NCBI GenBank assembly: GCA_031278815.1
Contig: JAITJS010000032.1
Span: 1 to 33,441, forward strand
Direction: 5' to 3'
Length of the DNA stretch: 33,441 nucleotides
Origin: Treponema sp.
Lineage (GTDB): Bacteria > Spirochaetota > Spirochaetia > Treponematales > Breznakiellaceae
Each line of letters starts with the position of its first letter. Position 1 is the stretch's first letter. The position numbers and the translations under genes are program-made. The notes beneath the pieces were generated by a model that was not told the DNA's origin, searched no databases, and saw only the letters and a program-made list of their open reading frames with translations. Of the stretch, positions 5,462 to 14,572 are shown piece after piece.

Positions 5462-5523
5462 AATAATCCTCCATGCTCATTTGGTTCGTCCAACAGGGCG
5501 CTGATAAGGGCAATACGTTTCAT
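5449..5523 (-). CDS. 24-codon upstream ORF overlapping hydG; possible remnant of a TM1266-type hydrogenase regulator
   Basis: The ATG at 5523 follows an excellent ribosome binding site (GGAGG, 5 nt spacing) right after the T tract of the leader terminator. The peptide begins MKRIALISALLDEP, which resembles the N-terminus of the small TM1266-type 'iron-only hydrogenase system regulator' family (about 80 residues). After about residue 16 the reading passes straight into the hydG ribosome binding site and stops at 5449, inside hydG. Two readings are possible: a deletion has removed most of a regulator gene that once preceded hydG, or this is a genuine leader peptide that couples translation. The family resemblance is from memory and short. 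Confidence 0.55.
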   Translation of the reverse strand: MKRIALISALLDEPNEHGGLLCTM

Positions 5524-5533
5524 GGCTACCTCC

Positions 5534-5566
5534 AAAAAAAAGCCTTCGAGGAACTTCCCCGAAGGC
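5534..5566 (-). terminator. Intrinsic terminator (attenuator) upstream of hydG
   Basis: On the minus strand GCCTTCG (5566-5560) pairs with CGAAGGC (5548-5542). The stem is extended by three inner pairs and is followed by eight T residues (5541-5534). It lies after a strong promoter and immediately before the first ribosome binding site, so it would stop transcription before hydG unless an alternative fold prevents it. Confidence 0.88.
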
Positions 5567-5720
5567 AGATACACACGCCAAGACACCATACCCCATTGCG
5601 GCAGGCCCCTTTCTGCCCTCGGCGAATCAGGAGAACGCGCTTTCCGCTTCGCTGCCCCTTATCCGTAAGGTCTTAATGTATCCACAACGTAAAGACTACT
5701 CTAAAGCGTGATGGACTTAT
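5567..5720 (-). promoter_or_regulatory. Structured 5' leader of hydG, candidate riboswitch of unassigned class
   Basis: Between the predicted transcription start (about 5720) and the terminator there are about 150 nt with clear pairing. A long-range closing helix uses GATACA (minus 5682-5677) with TGTATC (5573-5568) and AAGAC (5674-5670) with GTCTT (5584-5580). Inside are the hairpin CCTTA-CGGA-TAAGG (5670-5657), a GCGAA/TTCGC helix, and GGCAG...CTGCC (5617-5600). GGGCAG occurs twice (minus 5657-5652 and 5618-5613), and either copy could pair with CTGCC at 5568-5564. That pairing would disrupt the terminator stem and give an antiterminator. I do not recognise the TPP, cobalamin, FMN, SAM or Moco consensus. 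The repeated GGGCAG distantly recalls the NiCo (czcD) class, but this is only a guess. Confidence 0.6.
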
Positions 5721-5726
5721 GATTTT

Positions 5727-5755
5727 ATTATAATGGGGATTTTTGATGATGTCAA
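5727..5755 (-). promoter_or_regulatory. Near-consensus sigma-70 promoter for the hydG leader
   Basis: TTGACA (minus 5755-5750), a 17-bp spacer and TATAAT (5732-5727) match the housekeeping consensus perfectly. The predicted start at about 5720 gives a leader of about 190 nt to the upstream ORF. Such a strong promoter followed by a terminator is typical of attenuation control. Confidence 0.88.
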
Positions 5756-13091: not shown

Positions 13092-13211
13092 GATCTGCAA
13101 AGTATGATGCAATAAAAACGGCTCATGATCAATGAATGTAATTCATTATATTACCGTGAATGAGCTCTTCTTGGATTAATACCAGAAAGTTTCCATCATA
13201 CTTTGTGGATC
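13092..13211. repeat. Nested inverted-repeat element upstream of the serpin gene (MITE-like)
   Basis: Outer arms 13092-13109 and 13194-13211 match at 16 of 18 positions as inverted repeats (core CAAAGTATGATG). Inside lies a second pair, GCTCAT and ATGAGC, around an AATGAATGTAATTCATT palindrome. The 120-bp unit has no coding potential. It lies in the gap of about 380 bp between gltD and the serpin gene and ends 29 bp before the serpin ATG, so its hairpin would be in or near the serpin 5' leader. It is either a miniature element or a regulatory hairpin. The rest of the gap (12863-13091) shows nothing I can name. Confidence 0.6.
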
Positions 13212-13240
13212 GCTACTATTATTTTTTAGAGGTGAAAAAC

Positions 13241-14572
13241 ATGAGACACAAACCATGCTTTGCTATTTCAGGACGATTCTTTTTTCTTTTATTATACCCT
13301 TTTTGGGGATGTACTCCTGAAATCAACGGCGGTCTTGATGATTATACCGCAATAAAAGTTGTACAGGTAATTCCAAAGGAGCTTCAGCGGACGGAAGACC
13401 TTAATCCGGCTGCTGTTTCGGTTGCTAACGGGGCAAATGATTTTGCCTTTCAGTTGAGCGCGGCCCTTGCGGCACAAAAGGGTACAACAAACAATTTGGT
13501 TTGTTCGCCCCTTTCAGTCTGGATCCCCTTGACGGCGCTGGTCAATGCGGTCAAGGTTCAATACAAAGCAGATTTACTCAGGGCGTTGTGTGTGCCGGAC
13601 CTTGAAGATGCGGATATAAACAACGGGGTCTCGCGTATGTTGTATGATTTGACGCGGCAGCGATATAAGGAATATGAGGAGATGTACGGACAGGGGAACT
13701 ACCACGACCCTATTAAAATAGCCAATGCGATTTTTGTTGATTATGATCTAAAAATCGAAAATGATTTTGCGCAGGCCTTTATGGATTACTACCGGGGCAG
13801 TTCCATACATGTGGATTTTGAGTCCCCCACGGCCGTTACCGAAGTAAACGACTGGGTAGACAAAAACACCAATGGGATGATTCAGAACATAATACCGGAA
13901 TTTGAACCTGAAACGCTGGTGGTTCTTGCCAACGCCGTTTATTTTTTCGACCGGTGGAGTTGGGAATTTGACCCGAACAAAACCAAACCGGATACATTTT
14001 ATGCTCCCGGGGGAAGAAAAACACAGGCGTTTTATATGCTGCGGGAGGGAGAGAGGCAAATCTATTTTGAAGATGAAAAACTGCAAGCCATACCATTGAG
14101 TTTTAAGACAGACAGCGGACTCTATATTCTGCTTCCCAAGGACGGGAACGCGACAGGACTGCTGGCATCCCTGACCAGCGATTATTTTCTCGCGATACAA
14201 AACGGTTCAAAACTTGCCGATGGAAAATTGCTCCTGCCGCGGTTTTCCATTGACGGGGATGTAATGCGGCTGAAGGATATACTGATAACCATGGGCATTC
14301 CCCTGTTTGAACATAATTCCCTGACCGGACTGATACAGGAAGCGGATGTATTCCTTCGCGACGCGATACACAAAGCGGTGATCCAGGTCGACGAAAAAGG
14401 GACGACCGCCGCTGCGGTAACGATCTTGGAAGGAGCAACGTCATCGGGGGAGAATCCACCGAGAGAGCAATTTGAAATGATCTGCGATAAACCATTTGTG
14501 TTTATATTATACGGCCGTACCACTGACGGGGGTAATCAGGTATTATTCACGGGGGTGGTAAATCAGCCATAA
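13241..14572 (+). CDS. Serpin (serine protease inhibitor), probable lipoprotein
   Basis: A 443-residue protein with a complete serpin fold. It has NLVCSPLSVWIPLTALVNAV near the start, VNDWVDKNTNGMIQNIIP, then LANAVYFFDRWSWEF, and the C-terminal signature FEMICDKPFVFILYG. The reactive-centre-loop hinge EKGTTAAAVT (from Glu385) has the small residues required for loop insertion, which predicts an inhibitory serpin. By standard spacing P1-P1' is Ser401-Ser402. The N-terminus MRHKPCF...FLLLYPFWGC looks like a lipoprotein signal with Cys at about residue 27. The ATG follows AGAGGTG. The protein would sit on the cell surface or in the periplasm and block a serine or cysteine protease, perhaps from the host or from neighbours. 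The closest neighbours give no further clue. Confidence 0.95.
   Translation: MRHKPCFAISGRFFFLLLYPFWGCTPEINGGLDDYTAIKVVQVIPKELQRTEDLNPAAVSVANGANDFAFQLSAALAAQKGTTNNLVCSPLSVWIPLTALVNAVKVQYKADLLRALCVPDLEDADINNGVSRMLYDLTRQRYKEYEEMYGQGNYHDPIKIANAIFVDYDLKIENDFAQAFMDYYRGSSIHVDFESPTAVTEVNDWVDKNTNGMIQNIIPEFEPETLVVLANAVYFFDRWSWEFDPNKTKPDTFYAPGGRKTQAFYMLREGERQIYFEDEKLQAIPLSFKTDSGLYILLPKDGNATGLLASLTSDYFLAIQNGSKLADGKLLLPRFSIDGDVMRLKDILITMGIPLFEHNSLTGLIQEADVFLRDAIHKAVIQVDEKGTTAAAVTILEGATSSGENPPREQFEMICDKPFVFILYGRTTDGGNQVLFTGVVNQP

Follow-up and report, generated by a model that had tools for sequence, protein, structure and literature searches.

In the PyrR-regulated pyr leaders of Bacillus, a hairpin competes with an antiterminator, the first gene encodes the regulator, and the bound hairpin leads to termination. 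Transcriptional OFF riboswitches have a covarying stem in the 5′ UTR and mutually exclusive antiterminator and terminator structures, with translational versions in relatives. These last features are shared by the leader of the hydG gene on contig JAITJS010000032.1 of a Treponema sp., of which positions 1–33,441 were analysed (the window). As in the pyr leaders, competition between hairpin and antiterminator, a first gene for a putative regulator and termination when the hairpin is held are predicted here, although no sequence relation was shown, and TM1266, the product of the usual first gene, is unrelated to PyrR and a putative RNA-binding protein. Unlike the OFF riboswitches, the leader has a single small hairpin with no Rfam match and no known ligand. 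The TPP and NiCo (czcD) riboswitches would suggest themselves by function, as HydG is a relative of ThiH and the enzymes use iron, but Rfam matched neither of them, whether in the window or in the leaders of relatives. The TM1266 family (TIGR03959/PF21699, PDB 2nzc), which carries the annotation of a putative iron-only hydrogenase system regulator, describes the protein and not the RNA; no account of its target or mechanism was present in the papers found, and no DNA-binding domain was recognised in it here. The mechanism would work like that of known attenuators, but the class, the target genes and the effector appear to be new.

A first-pass annotation, made from the sequence, had been unable to assign the leader to a known RNA class, and the database comparison agrees with this. 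None of 4227 Rfam families matched the window at gathering score, the best at E ≤ 10 being skipping-rope (15.8 bits versus 36.7 needed), and in the related loci tRNA alone reached gathering score, elsewhere than in the leaders. A tyrosine T-box and a TPP riboswitch were rejected for lack of Rfam matches in the window and related leaders, and a cobalamin-riboswitch B12 box seen by eye at about 5860–5835 was dropped as Rfam gave no support. RNA-level control of HydE, HydF or HydG was found neither in Rfam nor in the papers searched, hydrogenase is not mentioned in two riboswitch reviews (PMC7266159, PMC10043782), and the element is not described in the papers found, which came from the open-licence literature and would not include a description in a subscription journal.

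The leader, its terminator and hydG are all on the minus strand of the window. A σ70-type promoter with TTGACA (5755–5750), a spacer of 17 nt and TATAAT (5732–5727) is a perfect 12/12 match (5755–5727), and transcription probably starts near 5720. The intrinsic terminator (5566–5534) consists of an 11 bp stem (5566–5542, −17.9 kcal/mol) and a U8 tract (5541–5534), directly followed by a strong GGAGG ribosome binding site (RBS, 5533–5529); the promoter and the stem with eight T before the first RBS had both been recognised in the first-pass annotation, and both were recovered. About 150 nt of clear pairing had also been claimed, which holds for the presence of a structured leader with a covarying hairpin, although the folding energy is only modestly unusual (z −1.95, with 8/200 shuffles folding equally well). 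An optional upstream hairpin, P0 (CCAU...GAG/UCUU...GUGG, 5716–5680), was identified by covariation and in the fold of the window; it was seen in 20 aligned leaders, with 24 two-sided cells versus 8.7 in shuffled alignments, and is not essential, as it is absent at several loci. Elsewhere in the window a serpin gene (PF00079, 253 bits) is located at 13160–14572, in what is a bacterial genome.

The hydG gene (5461–4046; TIGR03955, 840.8 bits) encodes the [FeFe] hydrogenase H-cluster radical SAM maturase, and has its own GGAGG at 5472–5468. As a correction to the first-pass annotation, the first RBS after the terminator serves a 24-codon ORF, MKRIALISALLDEPNEHGGLLCTM (5523–5449), a truncated tm1266 remnant of which the stop overlaps the hydG start. 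Nine of its 14 first residues equal the start of intact TM1266, as compared by eye since the ORF is too short for BLASTP. Relatives carry an intact tm1266 at this position, which together with the remnant indicates that the original operon was tm1266-hydG and that the window, judged by this comparison, has lost most of tm1266. The leader was also kept in front of a decayed tm1266 in the closest relative and of a truncated one in a third genome. The window HydG falls into a lineage near that of Clostridia, unlike most treponeme HydG, and most of the other leaders precede HydG proteins about 50% identical to the window lineage. The leader, present before two distant HydG lineages, thus does not simply travel with a single allele of hydG, and the grouping suggests gene replacement of hydG behind a retained leader.

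Within the leader, a conserved hairpin and putative sensor (5671–5615) was detected by a held-out covariance model, covariation and folding. In the leaders of relatives it measures approximately 38 nt with a variable end, and the core common to tm1266 and hydG leaders reads ACCUURYGRAYCAAGA – variable end – UUCUGRUUYNNYGAGGGC. In the window, helix P2 pairs CCUU (5670–5667) with GAGG (5620–5617) and helix P3 pairs 5665–5661 with 5627–5623, followed by a window-specific distal helix of 5659–5655 with 5633–5629. Covariation was first assessed in 15 leaders of relatives, excluding the window: 96% of the cells were paired, six pairs showed changes in both partners, and two-sided cells numbered 20 versus 6.9 in shuffles (0/500, a value that is not a strict probability as the sequences are related), with every slid control far lower. 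Larger leader sets also show the covariation, and a near-invariant U-G pair is present in 47/49 sequences. The covariance model built from these 15 leaders (R1) had one match in the window, at 5671–5615 (25 bits, E 8.6e-5). This copy has diverged, as the conserved AAGA/UUCUG distal module is lost and its score compares with up to 56 bits in other leaders. When the leader was compared with 59 relatives by nucleotide BLAST, the window itself was the only match, and the conservation is therefore structural rather than simple DNA identity. The hairpin represents a conserved, covarying 5′ UTR structure as expected of riboswitches, and the lack of conservation in related hydG leaders that the first-pass annotation had named as a refutation of its reading was not seen.

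The 3′ strand of P2 (YGAGGGC) is complementary to the 5′ arm of the terminator. In the window, CCGAGGGCAGA (5622–5612), which overlaps this P2 strand, can pair with TCTGCCTTCGG (5569–5559), which overlaps the terminator arm, over 11 bp with −21.6 kcal/mol, ranking first of 34 leaders. The first-pass annotation had based a terminator/antiterminator switch on two GGGCAG copies (5657–5652 and 5618–5613) that could pair with CTGCC (5568–5564); all are present, but only the second copy is included in the conserved element, and the actual pairing is longer. Over the 34 leaders, pairing with the own partner (−13.3 kcal/mol) was stronger than with partners swapped among leaders (−11.3 kcal/mol), and 0/20,000 permutations were as low, which with related sequences is not a strict probability either. 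The antiterminator extends to a covarying P2 position in 25/32 leaders, in C:G and U:A forms. Computed with a single energy model at 37 °C, the full states of the window are 1 kcal/mol apart (terminator −66.8, antiterminator −65.8). When folding is followed stepwise, the antiterminator becomes lowest in energy as soon as the transcript has reached 5559, giving a computed, mutually exclusive expression platform. Several related loci lack a terminator (L024/L055, L026/L049, L053, L054 and L058), and there the GAGG of the P2 3′ strand is the RBS of the first gene, so that the folded hairpin is expected to block translation.

The hairpin and its covariation, the mutually exclusive pairings and the gene association, all read from sequence, support the switch proposed earlier, and the leader very probably is a cis-acting RNA attenuator of the H-cluster maturation regulon. 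Transcription would begin near 5720, and by default CCGAGGGCAGA would pair with the terminator 5′ arm (5569–5559), preventing the terminator and allowing transcription of hydG; the in silico folding suggests that ON is the default state. An effector holding hairpin P2 would occupy the CCGAGGGCAGA strand, the terminator would form and transcription would stop. The folded hairpin would thus signify OFF in the terminator and RBS designs alike.

The distribution of the element further links it to H-cluster maturation. Model R1 gave 34 matches in 29 of 119 related genomes, with an intact tm1266 as first gene in 23, a truncated or decayed tm1266 in four (including the window), and hydG (2), hydF (2) or a substrate-binding protein (1) in others; in the remaining two the contig ended or the first gene was not resolved. 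With HydE, HydF, TM1266 and an SsuA-like binding protein identified by NCBIfam, the genes behind identifiable matches are tm1266, hydE, hydF and hydG, together with an ABC transporter in hydE operons, and the predicted regulon includes hydE, hydF and hydG. In three loci the SsuA-like ABC transporter genes are located between leader and hydE, and a fourth has the order leader, hydF, aspartase-like gene, tm1266, hydG, hydE (unprofiled genes in these four loci were named from sequence). The genome of the window contains exactly two copies, the second and stronger one (53 bits) ahead of tm1266-hydE. Ten of 393 genomes of the phylum had R1 matches, all within the same family, and every match at E ≤ 0.01 in the 393 genomes sits at a tm1266/hyd locus. 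An exact pattern searched in one genome per species (84,980 species) gave 43 matches, of which 37 were ahead of tm1266/hyd genes or were hyd-type leaders of Spirochaetaceae. The other six lie at unrelated genes and were discarded as chance matches. Two of the pattern matches are from Clostridia, with tm1266 and hydG and then a hydF-looking GTPase gene, and an order-level scan around the match in Oscillospiraceae, covering 294 genomes, revealed no additional member. Many of the genomes with the leader are metagenome bins titled Treponema sp., and these presumably originate from termite guts.

As for the effector, nearly the same probability applies to the TM1266 protein and to a small molecule. 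If the leader is an attenuator, there is close to an even chance that TM1266 is its RNA-binding autoregulator, a reading suggested by its position as usual first gene, the small free-ended hairpin and the related-looking hairpins before tm1266 elsewhere. The gene is present in 26 of the 29 motif genomes and was not detected in three that are 98%, 92% and 90% complete, the last with a contig end. Such genomes would fit a true riboswitch, in which the hairpin binds a small molecule or metal directly, without a protein (for instance an H-cluster intermediate, Fe2+ or a sulfur compound). This has a fair share of the probability, if short of even: a conserved unpaired M-A bulge and a U before UCUG lie beside invariant AGA:UCU pairs, some leaders have no adjacent tm1266 and directly precede hydF, hydG or a transporter, and the transporter within hydE operons is also consistent with it. 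An element made of one small and imperfect hairpin, the end of which varies freely, looks more like a protein site, however, and the predominance of tm1266 as first gene and the lack of a match to known classes likewise argue against direct ligand binding. The ligands suggested for HydG in the first-pass annotation, Fe2+, SAM and tyrosine, gained no support, and the regulon is broader than hydG.

Hairpins in other lineages bear on the TM1266 reading. With the element of termite-gut-type treponemes designated form A, a form B hairpin (NACU-GA-GAG...CUC-GA-GGUN) precedes tm1266 at 14 loci of other, more distant Spirochaetota. It covaries (18 two-sided cells versus 6.2), its model found held-out cases before tm1266-hydG in a distant family, and the 11 form B leaders compared with Rfam had no match. 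Form C (CUGA-X...X′-RAAGG) was seen in 15/60 Clostridial tm1266 leaders versus 1.1 in shuffles, was noted in L192, L194, L199, L206, L235, L250 and others, and covaries in 15 sequences that were partly picked by eye. Several form C hairpins are followed by an apparent terminator with a 5′ arm complementary to GAAGGC. The AAGA...UCUGR end of form C also occurs in form A, and its CUGA...RAGG base in form B, but models R2 and R3 give no score on Clostridial leaders, so that the relation of A and C is drawn from shared short elements only. That the three forms are one old RNA class, read by an RNA-binding TM1266 and tuning [FeFe]-hydrogenase maturation in two phyla, is conceivable but rather doubtful.

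The window copy could also be a decaying relic, with an unswitched terminator merely lowering hydG expression. Its altered distal module, its score of 25 bits, where the hydE copy of this genome reaches 53, and the truncated neighbouring tm1266 would agree with decay, but P2 and P3 are intact, the antiterminator is the strongest among all leaders and the perfect promoter is preserved, making this improbable. An inverted repeat serving as operator for a DNA-binding regulator might explain a conserved dyad near the promoter at several loci, but is very unlikely given the near-invariant U-G pair and the asymmetric internal loops, which point to RNA, and the location of the hairpin downstream of the −10 box, overlapping a terminator arm or RBS. 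Finally, a terminator of the unrelated gene upstream on the same strand (7361–5889), the alternative named in advance in the first-pass annotation, can practically be dismissed, since the perfect promoter lies in between and synteny ties the conserved leader to tm1266/hyd genes and not to that gene.

Attenuation of the H-cluster maturation genes by a single RNA element before hydE, hydF and hydG would mean that a feature shared by the pathway as a whole is being sensed by the cell. The element would offer a handle on the signal that is sensed, and would give the TM1266 family a concrete target. Turnover of H2 by gut treponemes is of importance to the nutrition of termites, and a control point of this kind would therefore have ecological weight.
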